A stretch of 43,800 nucleotides of DNA from Actinomycetota bacterium (GTDB lineage: Bacteria > Actinomycetota > Acidimicrobiia > Acidimicrobiales > JAJPHE01). A program made the translations under genes and the position numbers. Positions within the stretch are counted from its first letter, which is position 1, and every line of letters begins with the position of its first letter. Under the pieces are notes generated by a model. It worked only from the letters and a program-made list of their open reading frames with translations, had not been told where the DNA came from and ran no database searches. The stretch spans positions 1 through 43,800 of the forward strand of contig DAHUYE010000052.1 in the NCBI GenBank assembly GCA_027315345.1, given 5' to 3'. Shown piece after piece: positions 1-37,022 of this stretch.

Positions 1-368
1 GCTTCGCGGATGAGCTGTCCGTCTCGGACTTCGTAGATGACGCTGGCGGCCACTTCGATGTGACGATCGGTGGCGGGGATGCCCATGAACGGGCCGCCAT
101 GGGTCCCGGAGAAGACGAGCTCGTCGATAATGACCGAGCCGTCCTGGTATCGATGGAGGAGCCGAGGCTCCAGATCGGGAAAGGCGCCGAAGAGATCTTG
201 GTAGAAGACCCGGATCTCGGCGGGTCCGATGAACTCGCGACCGGTCGGCTTGGGCTCCAGCACGGCGTCGGGTCCGAAGGTGGCGACCACCCCCTCGACG
301 TCCTGGGCGGCCTCGGCCTCTTCGTGGCGATCGATGGCGGTGAAGTCCTGGTCGGTCATGGCGGTCAT
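1..368 (-). CDS. SnoaL-like / ester-cyclase family protein (3' end cut by window)
   Basis: About 122 residues are visible, read leftwards and running off the window edge. The visible part has the NTF2/SnoaL pattern: an N-terminal helix (EAEAAQDVEGVVATFGPDAV), a GPAEIRVFYQDLFGAFPDLE segment, and a strand series ending FSGTHGGPFMGIPATDRHIE. This matches ester-cyclase-like SnoaL proteins of about 130-140 residues, so little is missing. The ATG at 368 is chosen because AAGGAGG (380-374) lies 5 bases upstream; an in-frame ATG at 359 is the alternative. Family members range from polyketide cyclases to proteins of unknown substrate, and no biosynthetic neighbours are visible, so no reaction is assigned. 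It is divergent from the LuxR-hydrolase gene. Confidence 0.75.
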   Translation of the reverse strand, partial: MTAMTDQDFTAIDRHEEAEAAQDVEGVVATFGPDAVLEPKPTGREFIGPAEIRVFYQDLFGAFPDLEPRLLHRYQDGSVIIDELVFSGTHGGPFMGIPATDRHIEVAASVIYEVRDGQLIRE

Positions 369-5842: not shown

Positions 5843-8617
5843 ATGTGCCGATGCAGAAACGGCATGCGATTTGCCCCAATCAAACGGCGCCGGCTCAGGC
5901 GAGCCCTGGTTCCCGCCGTCCTGGTCTGCGGCCTGCTGGCCGGTGGACTCGGCCAGCCGGCTCTGGCCGCCGCCTCGGCCCGGGGGCAGTCTCGGGCCCT
6001 GGTCCAGTTCCACCTCCGGCCCGCCGTGGCGCCGGCGGGGTCCACCCGGCTCGGACCGGCGGCCGGCGTCCAGGCCCTCCACCTGACCTTGACCCTCGCC
6101 TCCCGGGATCCGGCCGGCTTGTCCGCCTTGGCCTCGGAGGTCAGCAACCCGGCCAGTCCGGAGTACCGGCGCTTCATCAGCCCGGGTCAATTCGCCGCCC
6201 GGTTCGGAGCCTCGCCGGCCGAGGTGAGTTCGCTGCGGGCGTCCCTGCGGTCGAAGGGCCTGGCCGGGGGGCGGCTGGCTAGCAATGGCCTGTCCCTGGC
6301 CGTGACCACCACCGTGGCCACGGCGGAGCGGGCCTTCCACACCTCTATGGCCGCCGAACGGCTGGCGTCGGGCCGCCTGGCCTACGCCAACGTCAGCGCC
6401 GCCACCTTCCCGCCCGGCGTTTCGGGGGTGCTCGGTCTGGACGACCTGGCCCAGGCCCACTCGGCCCTGACCCGCAGCGCCCTGACCCGCAGCGCCCTGA
6501 CCCGTACCGCCCTGGCCGAGCCCCGGACCACGGAAACGTCCTTGCCGGTGAGCAGTTGCGTTTCGTCATCGACGGCTAATTCGCCGTCGTCGTTGGCGGC
6601 GGCCTACGGGCTCGGGGGCCTGTACTCCCAGGGAGTGGACGGGACCGGGATGACCGTGGCCCTCTTCGAGCTGGCCGACTTCGCACCCTCCGACGTGGCC
6701 GCCTTCGCCTCCTGTGACGGCATATCCGGTGAATCGGTCAGCGTGGTGGCCGTCGACGGTGGGGCGGCGGTGGGAGCCGGCACCACCGAGGCCACCGCCG
6801 ACATCGAGGATCTCATGTCCCTGGCCCCCGGAGCCGCCATAGTGGCCTACGAGGGCCCCAACACCACCTCGGGCCTCTACGACACCTACTCCGCCATCAT
6901 CTCGGCCGACCGGGCCCAGGTGGTGGCCACCAGCTGGGGCATCTGCGAGGCCCAGAACGACCCCGGCTTGATGCAGGCCGAGAACACCCTGTTCGAGCAG
7001 GCCGCCACCCAGGGTCAAACCATTCTGGCCGCATCCGGGGACTCGGGCTCCCAGGACTGTTATGGGCCCCCCGCCAGCTCGGATACCTCCCTGGCCGTCG
7101 ATGACCCCTCCAGCCAGCCCTACGTCACCGGTGTGGGTGGGACCTCTCTTTCCTCCACCAGCCCCCGGACGGAGGCGGCGTGGAACAGCGACGGCGGAGC
7201 CGGCGGCGGGGGCATCTCCAGTGTCTGGCCCATGCCCTCCTGGCAGACGGGGGCGGTCACCAGCCAGTCCTCGGGCTTGCCCTGCGCAGCCGCCAGCGGT
7301 GACTGCCGTCAGGTCCCGGACGTCTCGGCTTCCGCCGATCCCAACTACGGCTACCTCGTCTACTGCACGGCGGGGGACTGCAGCGGCCGGGGCTGGGGCA
7401 CGGTGGGAGGGACCAGCATGGCCTCCCCCCTATGGGCGGCCGTGGTGGCTCTGGATGACCAGTCCTGTGCCACGTCCAACCGGGCCGGTCTCATCAACCC
7501 CGTCCTCTACGGAGCGGGACGGAGCGATCTCAACGACGTGACCAGCGGTAACAACGACCTCAACGGGACCCATCCCGGGGACTACAACGCCGGGACCGGC
7601 TACGACATGGCCACCGGCCTGGGCAGTCCCGATGCCACCGCCTTGGCGTCGGCTCTCTGCGCCTCATCCAGCCGGGTCTCCGCCGGGGGCTCCGCGGGCG
7701 GGAGCTCGGGGGGCGGAGGGACCGGGACCACCACGACCACCACTACGAGTACGACCACCACCAGTACCACCACCACGACGACCACAGCTCCGACTACCAC
7801 GACCACCACCGCTCCGACGACGACCACCACGACTGCCCCGCCGGTAGTCGCCGCGCCGGCCCCGGCCGTCGCCCCCGGCTACCGCTTCGTGGCCTCCGAC
7901 GGTGGCGTGTTCGACTTCGGCACCGCCGCCTTCGAGGGTTCGGGCGCCGGCACCGGACTCGGGGCGCCGGTGGTGGGTATGGCCGCCGCCCCGGGCGGAT
8001 CGGGCTACTGGCTGGTGACCTCAACCGGGCGGGTCCTGGCTTTCGGGACCGCAGCCAACCTCGGATCGCTCGGCGGTCTGCCGGCCGGCCCGATAGTGGG
8101 CATGGCCGCCACCCCGGATGGCGGGGGCTACTGGCTGGTCTCCTCCGCCGGGGCCGTCTACTCCTTCGGTGACGCCGCCTTCCACGGTTCGACTGCCGGC
8201 CTGGCCCTGGCCGCCCCGGTGGTGGGGATGGCCGTCGACCCGGTGACGGGCGGCTACTGGCTGGTGGCCGGGGACGGGGGGATCTTCAGCTACGACGCCC
8301 CCTTCTACGGCTCGGCCGGCGCCATCCACCTGGCCAAGCCCATCGTGGGGATGTCGGCCATGCCCGACGGGCGGGGCTACCGCTTCGTGGCCTCCGACGG
8401 TGGCGTGTTCGACTTCGGGGACGCCGCCTTCTACGGCTCGGCCGGCGCCATCCGCCTGGCCCGCCCGGTGGTCGGGATGTCGGTGACCCCCGACGGGGCC
8501 GGTTACTGGCTGGTGGCCTCCGACGGGGGCATCTTCTCCTACGGGGATGCGCCCTTCCTGGGCTCCACCGGCGCCATCCGGCTGGCCCAACCCATCGGGG
8601 GGATGGCCGGGGTCTGA
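5843..8617 (+). CDS. Secreted S53 sedolisin-type protease with a C-terminal six-blade propeller-repeat domain
   Basis: This 924-residue exoprotein has a signal peptide (about residues 15-42, KRRRLRRALVPAV then a hydrophobic run), an S53 activation pro-domain (about 45-200), and a sedolisin domain (about 225-610). The catalytic set is visible: E316 and D320 in TEATADIED, oxyanion D400 in SGDSG, and S525 in GTSMASP. A late Asp-rich Ca2+ site (SDLNDVTSGNND) is present. A Thr-rich linker (7729-7845) leads to six repeats of about 42 residues with the GYWLVASDGG...FGDA...PVVGM pattern, ending at the C terminus. Sedolisins are serine-carboxyl peptidases active at acid pH; the propeller probably binds wall or matrix. 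A SALTR triplet repeat lies at the end of the pro-domain. The start is ATG 5843 or ATG 5864, and the second leaves a more usual signal peptide. Confidence 0.92.
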   Translation: MCRCRNGMRFAPIKRRRLRRALVPAVLVCGLLAGGLGQPALAAASARGQSRALVQFHLRPAVAPAGSTRLGPAAGVQALHLTLTLASRDPAGLSALASEVSNPASPEYRRFISPGQFAARFGASPAEVSSLRASLRSKGLAGGRLASNGLSLAVTTTVATAERAFHTSMAAERLASGRLAYANVSAATFPPGVSGVLGLDDLAQAHSALTRSALTRSALTRTALAEPRTTETSLPVSSCVSSSTANSPSSLAAAYGLGGLYSQGVDGTGMTVALFELADFAPSDVAAFASCDGISGESVSVVAVDGGAAVGAGTTEATADIEDLMSLAPGAAIVAYEGPNTTSGLYDTYSAIISADRAQVVATSWGICEAQNDPGLMQAENTLFEQAATQGQTILAASGDSGSQDCYGPPASSDTSLAVDDPSSQPYVTGVGGTSLSSTSPRTEAAWNSDGGAGGGGISSVWPMPSWQTGAVTSQSSGLPCAAASGDCRQVPDVSASADPNYGYLVYCTAGDCSGRGWGTVGGTSMASPLWAAVVALDDQSCATSNRAGLINPVLYGAGRSDLNDVTSGNNDLNGTHPGDYNAGTGYDMATGLGSPDATALASALCASSSRVSAGGSAGGSSGGGGTGTTTTTTTSTTTTSTTTTTTTAPTTTTTTAPTTTTTTAPPVVAAPAPAVAPGYRFVASDGGVFDFGTAAFEGSGAGTGLGAPVVGMAAAPGGSGYWLVTSTGRVLAFGTAANLGSLGGLPAGPIVGMAATPDGGGYWLVSSAGAVYSFGDAAFHGSTAGLALAAPVVGMAVDPVTGGYWLVAGDGGIFSYDAPFYGSAGAIHLAKPIVGMSAMPDGRGYRFVASDGGVFDFGDAAFYGSAGAIRLARPVVGMSVTPDGAGYWLVASDGGIFSYGDAPFLGSTGAIRLAQPIGGMAGV
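7729..7845 (+). repeat. Thr-rich low-complexity linker (ACC/ACG/ACT codons)
   Basis: An imperfect run of CCACGACCA-type triplets encodes almost only Thr with occasional Ala-Pro, joining the sedolisin and propeller domains. Such linkers are flexible and likely glycosylated. The repeat is coding and has no spacer structure, so it is not a CRISPR array. Confidence 0.8.
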
Positions 8618-9073: not shown

Positions 9074-9306
9074 GCTCGGCTGTCGCGGTCCCGTCTGACC
9101 AACTCGGCCGCTTCAAAGGCCGGCTCGGACTGGAAGCGCCGCTCGGATCTGGCGATCGCCTCCGACACCGCGTCTGGATCCGGGCGATCCAGCTCGCGCC
9201 GGGCGGCCGTCGCCAAGAGGGCGCTGCGGCTGACCGAGCGCCGGGCGGCCTCCCGGTCGAGCTCCCGGACCAGGTCCTCGGGCAGTGAGACCATCACCTT
9301 GGCCAT
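9070..9306 (-). CDS. Ribbon-helix-helix antitoxin paired with the PIN toxin
   Basis: This 78-residue protein starts MAKVMVSLPEDLVRELDREA and continues SVSRSALLATAARRELD, the standard RHH strand-helix-helix. The acidic and charged C terminus (EAAELVRRDRDSRA) would contact the toxin. The ATG at 9306 lies exactly 6 bases after a consensus TATAAT, with no ribosome-binding site, so translation is probably leaderless. The inverted repeat that overlaps this -10 is a likely binding site for the protein itself. Confidence 0.88.
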   Translation of the reverse strand: MAKVMVSLPEDLVRELDREAARRSVSRSALLATAARRELDRPDPDAVSEAIARSERRFQSEPAFEAAELVRRDRDSRA

Positions 9307-10856: not shown

Positions 10857-11105
10857 ATGTTGGACCGGAGACTCCAGGTCCTCATCGATGAGGAACGCTG
10901 GCAGCGCCTTCAGAGCGAAGCCGACCAGCGGCGGGTGTCGGTCAGCACGCTGGTGCGCGAGGCCATCGACTCTCATTACCCCATCGATGCCTCCGGCCGC
11001 CGGGCTGCCCTGGAGAGACTGCTCGGGGCCGAGCTCATTGATGTGCCCGACGCCGATGAGCTGGTGCAGGAGTTGGACGAGCTTCGCGCCTCTCGATCCG
11101 AGTGA
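10857..11105 (+). CDS. Ribbon-helix-helix antitoxin
   Basis: This protein of 82 residues (84 if ATG 10851 is used) begins MLDRRLQVLIDEERWQRLQ and continues RRVSVSTLVREAIDSHY, a CopG/Arc-like RHH fold. The C terminus (ELIDVPDADELVQELDELRA) is acidic, as in antitoxins that shield a basic PIN toxin. Its stop codon overlaps the toxin GTG as GTGA. The start at 10857 is preferred because a TACTAT -10 is 6 bases upstream. Confidence 0.85.
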   Translation: MLDRRLQVLIDEERWQRLQSEADQRRVSVSTLVREAIDSHYPIDASGRRAALERLLGAELIDVPDADELVQELDELRASRSE

Positions 11106-19929: not shown

Positions 19930-21168
19930 TCAGCGAGTCGGGTCAGACGATCCGAGGGCGGCCTCGATGTTGTCCAGCATGCGGGCGGTGCAGCCGGCCA
20001 GCTCCACGACCGGGGCGACCTCGGTGGCGATGCGCTCGGCCAGAGCGATGAAGGCATCCCGGACTGCCAGTCGACTCGGGGCACCGGGGGATACGGCGGG
20101 GGCGTCGGTGCCGGCCGGGGAGTCATGGGGACCGGCCAGGACGGCGGGGCGGCCGGCGTCTCCGCCGGCGGCCACGGCCGGGTCCAGGGGGATCCGGGCC
20201 AAGAGGGGGGCGCCGATCTCATCGGCCAGGCGCTGGCCGCCGCCGGAGCCGAACAGGGGATAGGAGACGCCATGGTCGCACTCGAAGGCGCTCATGTTCT
20301 CGATCACGCCGGCCACCCGCAGGTAGCCCCGGCGGGCCATGTCGGCGGCCCGGGCGGCCACCTTCTGGGCGGCCAGGGCCGGAGTGGTGACGATGATCAT
20401 GTCGGCCCGGGGCAGCATGCGGGCCAGGCCCATCTGCACGTCCCCGGTACCGGGGGGCATGTCGATGAGCAGGTAGTCCAACTCGCCCCAGTCCACGTCC
20501 TCCAGGAAGTGCTGGACGGCCCGGTTGAGCATCAGACCCCGCCACATCACCGCCTCGTCCTCCCCGGAGAGGAAGCCCATGGACACCACATCGATGCGGC
20601 CTCCGTGGGGGCCGACCGGGAGGCGGAGGGGGATCATTTTGCCGGCCTTGGCTTCCAGGCGGGCGTCCAGGCCGAGCATGCGGGGCACGGAGAAGCCCCA
20701 GATGTCGGCGTCGAGGATGCCGACCTGGAGGCCCCGCAGGGCCAGGGCGGCGGCCAGGTTGACGGTGACGGAGGACTTGCCCACCCCGCCTTTGCCCGAG
20801 GCGATGGCCAGGGCCCGGGTGGAGGGGTGCACGGCCGTGGGGGCGGCGGCCTCCCTGGCCTTCCAGCGGGCCCGGGCCATGACCGCCGAGCGTTGGTCGG
20901 CGTCCATGGTCCCGACGGCCACCTCCACCGAGCTGACCCCGGGCAGGGAGGCCAGCCGGCGGTTGACGTCGCCTTCTATCTGGGAGCGGAGGGGACAGGA
21001 GGCAATGGTGAGTGCGACCGAGACGCTGACCTGGCCGGTCGGGGAGATGGCGATGTCCCCGACCATGCCCAGGGAGACGATGTCCTCGCCCAGCTCGGGG
21101 TCGACCACGCCGGCCAGGGCGCCCCGGACGGCGTCGGCCGAGGGGGCAGGGGGGCGGGTGTCCGGCAC
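19930..21168 (-). CDS. mrp: Mrp/NBP35-family iron-sulfur carrier ATPase
   Basis: This 412-residue protein has an N-terminal MIP18/DUF59 domain (about 12-95, VRGALAGVVDPELGEDIVSLG) and a P-loop ATPase with GKGGVGKSSVTVNLA, DADIWGFSVP and LLIDMPPGTGDVQ. The late GSGGGQRLADEIG motif is present. The CxxC pair that bridges a [4Fe-4S] cluster in many Mrp dimers is incomplete (VIENMSAFECDHG has one Cys), so cluster binding may differ. The C terminus has a Pro/Gly-rich insertion and an extra helix. The start is GTG, 6 bases after a TAGAAT -10 within the palindrome at 21171-21204. It is divergent from the HTH gene and close to an A-type carrier, forming an Fe-S block. Confidence 0.9.
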   Translation of the reverse strand: MPDTRPPAPSADAVRGALAGVVDPELGEDIVSLGMVGDIAISPTGQVSVSVALTIASCPLRSQIEGDVNRRLASLPGVSSVEVAVGTMDADQRSAVMARARWKAREAAAPTAVHPSTRALAIASGKGGVGKSSVTVNLAAALALRGLQVGILDADIWGFSVPRMLGLDARLEAKAGKMIPLRLPVGPHGGRIDVVSMGFLSGEDEAVMWRGLMLNRAVQHFLEDVDWGELDYLLIDMPPGTGDVQMGLARMLPRADMIIVTTPALAAQKVAARAADMARRGYLRVAGVIENMSAFECDHGVSYPLFGSGGGQRLADEIGAPLLARIPLDPAVAAGGDAGRPAVLAGPHDSPAGTDAPAVSPGAPSRLAVRDAFIALAERIATEVAPVVELAGCTARMLDNIEAALGSSDPTR

Positions 21169-21170
21169 GG

Positions 21171-21204
21171 CCGAATTCTACCGGTCTGGGCCGGTACAAT
21201 TCGG
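21171..21204. promoter_or_regulatory. 34-bp palindrome with leaderless promoters on both strands
   Basis: The left arm CCGAATTCTACCGG (21171-21184) and right arm CCGGTACAATTCGG (21191-21204) match as inverted repeats at 13 of 14 positions, loop 6. It fills nearly all of the 39-bp gap between the mrp GTG (21168) and the HTH GTG (21208). On the plus strand TACAAT (21195-21200) precedes the HTH GTG by 7 bases. On the minus strand TAGAAT (21180-21175) precedes the mrp GTG by 6 bases. A regulator bound here would cover both -10 elements. Confidence 0.7.
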
Positions 21205-21207
21205 GGT

Positions 21208-21465
21208 GTGGATCTGGAGCCACTCGACGTCTACAAGGCGCTGGGGGACCAGACCCGCTACCAGCTCTTCTCCGAGCTCCTGAGCTCAAGGGCGGCCCTG
21301 TCGACCTCGGAGCTGGCCGACCGGCTCTGCCTGCACCCCAATACGGTCCGGCCCCACCTGGAGCGGATGCGGGAGGTGGGCCTGGTCGAACTGGAGGTGG
21401 ACGGACGGGGGGCGGTGGGCCGGCCCCGGCACCGTTACCGGCCCGCCCCGGACCGGCGGGCATAA
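21208..21465 (+). CDS. Short helix-turn-helix regulator (SufR/ArsR-like, DNA-binding part only)
   Basis: This protein has 85 residues and is essentially one winged helix: VYKALGDQTRYQLFSELL, then LSTSELADRLCLHPNTVRPHLERMREVGLVEL and GRGAVGRPRHRYRPAP. The GRPRHRY ending is typical of the point at which larger SufR-like regulators continue into a cysteine-bearing sensor domain; here a stop follows at once. The gene sits between mrp and an A-type Fe-S carrier, so regulation of Fe-S assembly is likely, with sensing done by another molecule or not at all. No frameshifted extension is seen before the next gene. The GTG is 7 bases after TACAAT and within 4 bases of the palindrome. Confidence 0.8.
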   Translation: MDLEPLDVYKALGDQTRYQLFSELLSSRAALSTSELADRLCLHPNTVRPHLERMREVGLVELEVDGRGAVGRPRHRYRPAPDRRA

Positions 21466-21525: not shown

Positions 21526-21888
21526 GTGACCATGACGTCCACGGTCAAGATCGGCCGGAAGCCCACACCCATCACCCTCACCGACGCCGCCATCGCCAAG
21601 GTGGCCGAGCTGATCGAGAAGGAAGGCGAGGAAGGTCTGGCCCTGCGGGTGGCGGTCCGTCCGGGGGGCTGCTCGGGCTACAGCTACGAGATGTTCTTCG
21701 ATACAGAGGTCAATGATGACGACATCAGCCGGGAGTTCAGCGGCGTCAAGGTGGTCATCGACAACGCCTCGGCCGAGCTGATCAAGGGCGCCTCCCTGGA
21801 CTACAAGGACGGCCTGCAGGGGGCGGGATTCCACATCTCCAACCCCAACGCCCAGCGCACCTGCGGCTGCGGCAGCTCCTTCTCCTAA
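21526..21888 (+). CDS. A-type iron-sulfur carrier (HesB/IscA/ErpA family)
   Basis: This 120-residue protein has the family markers: ITLTDAAIAKVAELI, VRPGGCSGYSYEM (first Cys), IDNASAELIKGASLDY, and C-terminal RTCGCGSSF (Cys pair). These three Cys bind or transfer Fe-S clusters. The GTG at 21526 has AGGAGGA (21510-21516) 9 bases upstream; ATG 21532 would be too distant. It probably belongs to one unit with the HTH gene upstream and with the [2Fe-2S] gene downstream, which is in the same reading frame after the TAA. ErpA or IscA identity cannot be separated by eye. Confidence 0.93.
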   Translation: MTMTSTVKIGRKPTPITLTDAAIAKVAELIEKEGEEGLALRVAVRPGGCSGYSYEMFFDTEVNDDDISREFSGVKVVIDNASAELIKGASLDYKDGLQGAGFHISNPNAQRTCGCGSSFS

Positions 21889-24172: not shown

Positions 24173-24382
24173 ATGGCTTCATCCCGTACCACCTTCACGC
24201 TGGACGAGGAGCTGGCGGAGAGGGCCCGCCAGCTGGGGATCAACATCTCGGCGGCGGCCCGCCAGGGGGTGGCCGACGCGGTCCGGGCCGCCCTGGCCCA
24301 GTCGGACCGGGAGGCCTACCGGAGACACCCGGAGAGGACTGATGCCGCCTGGGCCGCAGCCGAGGTCTGGGGTGAGCCGTGA
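24173..24382 (+). CDS. CcdA/RHH-type antitoxin
   Basis: This 69-residue protein starts ASSRTTFTLDEELAERARQLG and continues ISAAARQGVADAVRAALAQ, an RHH-like strand and helix pair with a CcdA flavour. The tail has conserved-looking acidic and Trp residues (TDAAWAAAEVWGEP). The ATG has a TAGCAT -10 6 bases upstream and no ribosome-binding site, so the transcript is probably leaderless. Its stop overlaps the toxin GTG as GTGA. Pairing with a PemK/MazF-like partner is mixed with respect to textbook CcdA-CcdB. Confidence 0.82.
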   Translation: MASSRTTFTLDEELAERARQLGINISAAARQGVADAVRAALAQSDREAYRRHPERTDAAWAAAEVWGEP

Positions 24383-24687
24383 GGCGCGGTGAAGTCTGGC
24401 TGGCCGAGGTGGGTGGGAAAAGGCGGCCCGTCCTCGTGCTCACCCGGTCGGAGGTGCTCGACGTCCGCCTCCTGGTCACGGTGGCGGAGGTGACCACTTC
24501 CGTCCGGGGCCTGGCCGCCGAGGTCGAGCTGGACCACGCCGAAGGCGGCCTGGACCGCCCATCGGTCATCAACTGCGACGGTCTCCATACCGTCGCCCAA
24601 TCGTCACTGTCCGGCCCGGTGGGCCGGGTCGGGGACGAGGCCATGGACCGGGTCTGTCTGGCCGTCAGCCACGCCCTGGGCTGCTGA
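24379..24687 (+). CDS. MazF/PemK-family toxin
   Basis: This 102-residue protein opens with RRGEVWLAEVGGKRRPVLVLTR, the usual MazF strand pattern, and has EVTTSVRGLAAEVELDHAEGGLDRPSVINCDGLHTV, with the SVINC-D core seen in PemK/MazF endoribonucleases (over positions 45-75). Members cut mRNA or other RNA at short motifs. The recognition site cannot be predicted. The GTG is coupled to the antitoxin. It ends 21 bases before the stop of the GGDEF-EAL gene. Confidence 0.88.
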   Translation: MRRGEVWLAEVGGKRRPVLVLTRSEVLDVRLLVTVAEVTTSVRGLAAEVELDHAEGGLDRPSVINCDGLHTVAQSSLSGPVGRVGDEAMDRVCLAVSHALGC

Positions 24688-36954: not shown

Positions 36955-36988
36955 CGCACCTGTTCGTCAGTCGCAGAGAAGTTTGAGC

Positions 36989-37011
36989 GGGGTGGGCGTC
37001 ATGCCCACCCC
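36989..37011. terminator. Strong stem-loop between convergent operons
   Basis: GGGGTGGGC (36989-36997) and GCCCACCCC (37003-37011) form a perfect 9-bp stem with a GTCAT loop. It lies 34 bases after the sigma operon and 87 bases beyond the glnA operon stop, so it may end transcription in both directions. No clear T-run on either side. Confidence 0.6.
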
Positions 37012-37022
37012 GTTCAGCTGTA

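Follow-up and report, generated by a model that had tools for sequence, protein, structure and literature searches.

Background

The closest described counterparts of the locus reported here are the SufR repressors. In S. avermitilis, the SufR site, CAAC-N6-GTTG, overlaps the -10 element of sufR itself, and the site is retained in C. glutamicum (PMC11995493). SufR of M. tuberculosis, Rv1460, has three essential cysteines with the spacing C203-x12-C216-x27-C244 (PMC6034842). Leaderless promoters of the TANNNT type have also been documented in M. tuberculosis, together with a leaderless habit of its toxin-antitoxin pairs (PMC3898074). With regard to divergent transcription, E. coli has bidirectional promoters in which one -10 element is shared and the starts lie 10, 18 or 23 bp apart (PMC12825309). 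A literature search on SufR with Mrp, ErpA and Actinobacteria returned only a review and work on Fe-S enzymes in a foreign host.

Here we describe a 43,800-nucleotide stretch of DNA (hereafter, the window) in which mrp and the gene for a short SufR-like winged helix-turn-helix (wHTH) protein diverge from either side of a palindrome. On the basis of sequence comparison, we consider it likely that this palindrome is the autoregulatory operator of the adjacent regulator, spanning two interlocked, probably leaderless promoters. Such an operator would be a new variant among the SufR type: common to two predicted leaderless promoters, situated outside the suf operon and, in this genome, served by a regulator that has no sensor. 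Uncultured Acidimicrobiales-type actinobacteria would gain a defined and testable Fe-S switch for mrp and erpA, apart from the suf operon. The window genome, represented by one draft assembly, offers a natural experiment in which the operator and the DNA-binding half are kept and the sensor is gone.

Results

Geometry of the locus

The gap between the GTG codons of mrp and the regulator gene (21169-21207) measures 39 bp, of which the palindrome takes up 34 bp, most of the gap. The features of the locus are the following:

19930-21168, minus strand: mrp/ApbC-type Fe-S carrier P-loop ATPase gene, 412 aa, GTG at 21168
21171-21204, no strand: putative operator palindrome, arms of 14 bp with 13/14 pairs (93% complementary), spacer of 6 nt
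21175-21180, minus strand: -10 element TAGAAT of the mrp promoter, ending 6 nt before the GTG; predicted leaderless
21195-21200, plus strand: -10 element TACAAT of the regulator promoter, ending 7 nt before the GTG; predicted leaderless
21208-21465, plus strand: truncated SufR-like regulator gene, GTG at 21208, 85 aa, winged HTH complete, C-terminal sensor absent
21526-21888, plus strand: erpA, A-type Fe-S insertion protein gene (PRK13623 ErpA, 131.4 bits, cut-off 117)

The palindrome reads CCGAATTCTACCGG-tctggg-CCGGTACAATTCGG, with arms at 21171-21184 and 21191-21204, and its conserved core is ATTYTACCGG-N6-CCGGTANNAT. The coordinates bear out the preliminary description both in the 34-bp inverted repeat with 13 of 14 arm pairs between the two GTG codons and in the mirror positions of TACAAT and TAGAAT, 7 and 6 bases before the starts. 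Taken by itself, the repeat occurs at about chance frequency: using a threshold of arm 14, at most one mismatch and a spacer of up to 20, 2 inverted repeats in the entire window reach this quality, against 1.2 +/- 1.4 expected from dinucleotide shuffles. Its significance rests on position and conservation, and since the repeat alone is within chance, conservation was taken as the deciding evidence. A second 14-bp inverted repeat at 36984-37016 (TGAGCGGGGTGGGC-gtcat-GCCCACCCCGTTCA, 13/14) could be a terminator.

The two -10 elements are separated by 14 bp and the predicted starts by 40 bp, and each -10 is placed in the -35 region of the opposite promoter. Counting both strands, the 43.8-kb window has only about nine occurrences of the pattern TANNNT-5..8-[AG]TG, two of them in the mrp/regulator gap. 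Like recognized leaderless promoters, the locus has a conserved TANNNT about 6-7 nt before ATG/GTG, and in both directions transcription probably starts at the start codon.

Elsewhere in the window, TANNNT-6-RTG also precedes small antitoxin-like genes: a CcdA-like antitoxin gene followed by a PemK/MazF-like toxin gene (24173/24379; 24173-24687, plus strand), an RHH protein gene at 9306 (minus strand) and the gene of an 82-aa protein at 10857 (plus strand), with starts 6 nt after the hexamer. These are probable leaderless toxin-antitoxin genes, which fits the habit known from M. tuberculosis (PMC3898074).

The flanking genes are assigned through their domains. Mrp matches PF10609 (8.8e-80) and the N-terminal FeS_assembly_P domain PF01883 (3.6e-19), while erpA has a Shine-Dalgarno-like AGGAGG upstream and is probably co-transcribed with the regulator gene. 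The original designation of mrp and the HTH gene as two divergent Fe-S genes holds for mrp, an Fe-S carrier gene, but not for the 85-aa HTH protein, which itself lacks a set of Fe-S ligands.

Conservation of the putative operator and promoters

The arrangement in which mrp diverges from regulator-erpA was found in 29 orthologue loci of the same order, as far as the contigs extend, and nearly all of the 73 distinct loci taken from two collections have it too, many of these loci being from Acidimicrobiales/Acidimicrobiia. The regulator and mrp are still divergent in genomes of the phylum outside Acidimicrobiia. In three loci from another class (L139, L140, L141), the gap holds a different palindrome, TGCACGGT-N4-ACCGTGCA; the putative operator sequence is shifted there and the gene arrangement is kept.

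Conservation of the palindrome before mrp in related genomes had been proposed as a check of the initial interpretation, and the palindrome, the mirror -10 elements and their distance of 6-8 nt from the two starts proved to be kept across the order. Relatives aligned on the regulator start have ATTYTACCGG-N5..7-CCGGTANNAT or the CCGTGTAA variant. A joint test demanded ANNNTA and TANNNT, each 4-9 nt away from an in-frame start, that of mrp for the former and that of the regulator for the latter. Both mirror -10s were present 5-9 nt before in-frame starts at 44 of 71 loci, compared with 0.03% of shuffled regions; this is given as a count without a significance level because related genomes are not independent trials. 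Within the 44 loci, the distance from TANNNT to the start is 6-8 nt for mrp and 5-9 nt for the regulator. On either side, the -10-to-start spacings are grouped at 6-7 nt, and the two -10s are in most cases separated by 14-16 bp. Mean arm complementarity is 8.7/14 versus 3.5 with shuffled arms, with spacers mostly of 5-7, and the window palindrome (13/14) has the best symmetry among 57. Not all relatives have the overlap on both sides: in a minority (L086, L089 and L093 among others) the regulator -10 has apparently moved downstream, by a dozen or more bases, and the palindrome would then sit near the regulator's -35.

Searching 8 relatives for the operator gave one good site per genome, at the mrp/regulator gap, the remaining matches having 3 mismatches and lying on one strand only. 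A wider regulon was also sought, and no second good operator site was found in the window genome or in the 8 relatives.

The regulator ends at a domain boundary

The window regulator is an ArsR-type winged HTH protein (HTH_20, 1.8e-11) with a weak match to the SufR_cyano model (1.7e-6). Its AlphaFold model is a complete wHTH that ends after the wing (mean pLDDT 80); in the predicted model of a full-length relative (mean pLDDT 91) there is a second domain, of alpha/beta type. The protein stops at 85 aa, before the region where SufR proteins carry C-terminal Cys ligands for a [4Fe-4S] cluster, and is therefore a SufR-like remnant and not a complete SufR. Against the curated SufR model TIGR02702, which is cyanobacterial, it scores 27.9 bits and full-length orthologues 32.6-35.3, below the cut-off of 178.8. 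In common with SufR, it has an inverted-repeat candidate operator overlapping its own -10. Control of the suf operon, the other hallmark of SufR, is not indicated: the operon lies on another contig, and no operator of the palindrome's type was found upstream of it. Just before it, upstream of sufB, there is an inverted repeat GATAGG-N8-CCTATC (L043, ~7990-8020), possibly the operator of an unrelated regulator.

The 69 orthologues that are not cut by contig ends have lengths of 197-261 aa, versus 85 aa in the window, and most of them carry the putative Cys/His sensor domain. In these orthologues, C173-x13-C187-x2-H190-x26-C217 (L004 numbering) is nearly invariant, and the region is missing from the window protein. 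The window gene is the only short form among the regulators examined, and the two other genomes of the family have the regulator at full length. What had been called a short HTH regulator does keep its recognition helix, but it is the remnant of a SufR-like repressor of ~220 aa, with the putative Fe-S-sensing half missing only here. A search of the genome for the sensor domain, using the C-terminal half of a family orthologue as query, matched only the paralogue SufR2. Searches of the PDB by sequence and by fold returned mainly ArsR-type wHTH proteins and no solved SufR.

The remaining domain is among the fastest-evolving (terminal branch rank 68 of 70). It deviates at five alignment columns conserved at >=95%, among them one (A19Q) that is invariant in all other sequences, although the recognition helix, LHPNTVRPHLERMR, is unaltered. 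Without the C-terminal domain, the protein may dimerise less well. The sensor-less regulator might be constitutive, dimer-impaired or decaying.

SufR2 belongs to a second divergent sufR-like/mrp pair, SufR2/mrp2, on another contig of the same genome (L044 5724-7329, contig C65), and this pair is also present in both family relatives. It is intact at 234 aa, with 76-79% identity to family orthologues. Its locus has TAGAAT 6 nt before the GTG and a related palindrome with an N6 spacer, ATTCTACCTA-tgcccg-TAGGGGAAAT, with the half-site CTACCTA versus CTACCGG in the window operator.

Discussion

Proposed function

We propose that a regulator dimer sitting on the pair of TACCGG half-sites would mask the -10s of both overlapping divergent promoters and would thereby repress mrp in one direction and regulator-erpA in the other; repression of both is expected by analogy with the S. 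avermitilis SufR site, which overlaps the sufR -10. In the relatives, the C-terminal Cys/His domain would relieve repression at Fe-S cluster shortage, as in SufR. Also, polymerases at promoters interlocked in this way, with each -10 inside the -35 region of the opposite one, should exclude each other; next to the repressor, this exclusion would be another way in which the two sides might be coupled. The idea, put forward in the preliminary description, of one binding event gating two leaderless promoters and the regulator's own gene gains partial support from the order-wide conservation and the single-copy site. It stays a prediction, and polymerase exclusion might also contribute to the coupling.

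In the window genome, where the gene stops directly behind the DNA-binding domain, the operon retains the operator and the DNA-binding half and has lost its own sensor, and regulated release is not expected from the window protein. Most likely this protein acts as an autorepressor that is weak or constitutive; the cases to be weighed are weak repression of a constitutive kind, decay, and control by SufR2. We advance only tentatively, as a somewhat doubtful extension, that an Fe-S-sensing autoregulatory switch was made sensor-less in one lineage by clean domain loss while its operator became more symmetric, the 85-aa wHTH now constitutively setting the level of mrp and erpA or leaving sensing to SufR2.

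Alternative explanations

The regulator gene could instead be a decaying pseudogene and the palindrome an operator relic, with mrp and erpA unregulated or taken over by SufR2. The missing sensor domain and the long terminal branch agree with this, as do the intact SufR2, its own divergent mrp2 and its related operator; we nevertheless think it unlikely, if by no means negligible, because the ORF is intact up to a clean domain boundary, the recognition helix is unchanged, the palindrome is the most symmetric of its set and the SufR2 half-site differs. Alternatively, the short regulator may result from faulty assembly, with ~400-450 bp missing from a single draft genome, in which case the sensor-less reading would fall and the operator reading would stand. 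This we judge improbable: it would account for a single short regulator in a draft assembly of 106 contigs, but the boundary falls at a domain edge in otherwise intact coding sequence, between the stop and erpA there is a spacer with a good Shine-Dalgarno sequence, and the evolutionary rate of the remaining domain exceeds that of its sisters.

Two further explanations do without a repressor site. The symmetry might arise only from two back-to-back -10s, that is, from a bidirectional promoter, as the good conservation of the mirror -10s would allow and as pseudo-symmetric divergent promoters, common in bacteria, would suggest (PMC12825309). Against this, the inner CCGG...CCGG is conserved although it lies outside both hexamers, the spacer stays at 5-7 bp, and a repressor gene from a family that binds such sites adjoins the palindrome; the known class, moreover, has one shared -10 and closer starts, whereas here there are two -10s. 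This explanation is, in our estimate, quite improbable. Hardly any credence is given to the palindrome acting as an RNA hairpin, whether terminator or leader structure: the 13/14 stem-loop has GC-rich inner arms, but transcription would need to start within the gene next to it, the palindrome is not followed by a run of T, and conservation tracks the DNA geometry of the -10s and the start codons on both strands.

Comparison with known systems

The locus resembles the SufR systems of S. avermitilis and C. glutamicum (PMC11995493) in having a 6-bp-spacer inverted repeat that overlaps the regulator's own -10, an ArsR-type wHTH with C-terminal Fe-S ligands (in the orthologues) and a target in Fe-S biogenesis. 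It differs from them in the half-site, TACCGG and not CAAC, in facing mrp and regulator-erpA divergently and not the suf operon, in a site common to two predicted leaderless promoters and in the window regulator being without a sensor domain. The C173-x13-C187-x29-C217 of the orthologues resembles the Cys set of M. tuberculosis SufR (PMC6034842); unlike Rv1460, the first gene of the suf operon, our locus is linked to mrp/erpA, and the window copy is without any of these cysteines.

As in actinobacterial leaderless promoters (PMC3898074), TANNNT stands at its usual distance before the start codon, but the locus has two such predicted promoters, pointing apart within one palindrome. With the E. 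coli bidirectional promoters (PMC12825309) it shares divergent transcription, overlapping symmetric promoter DNA and possible polymerase exclusion; it falls outside the shared -10 class, its two -10s being 14 bp apart and its predicted starts 40 bp apart.
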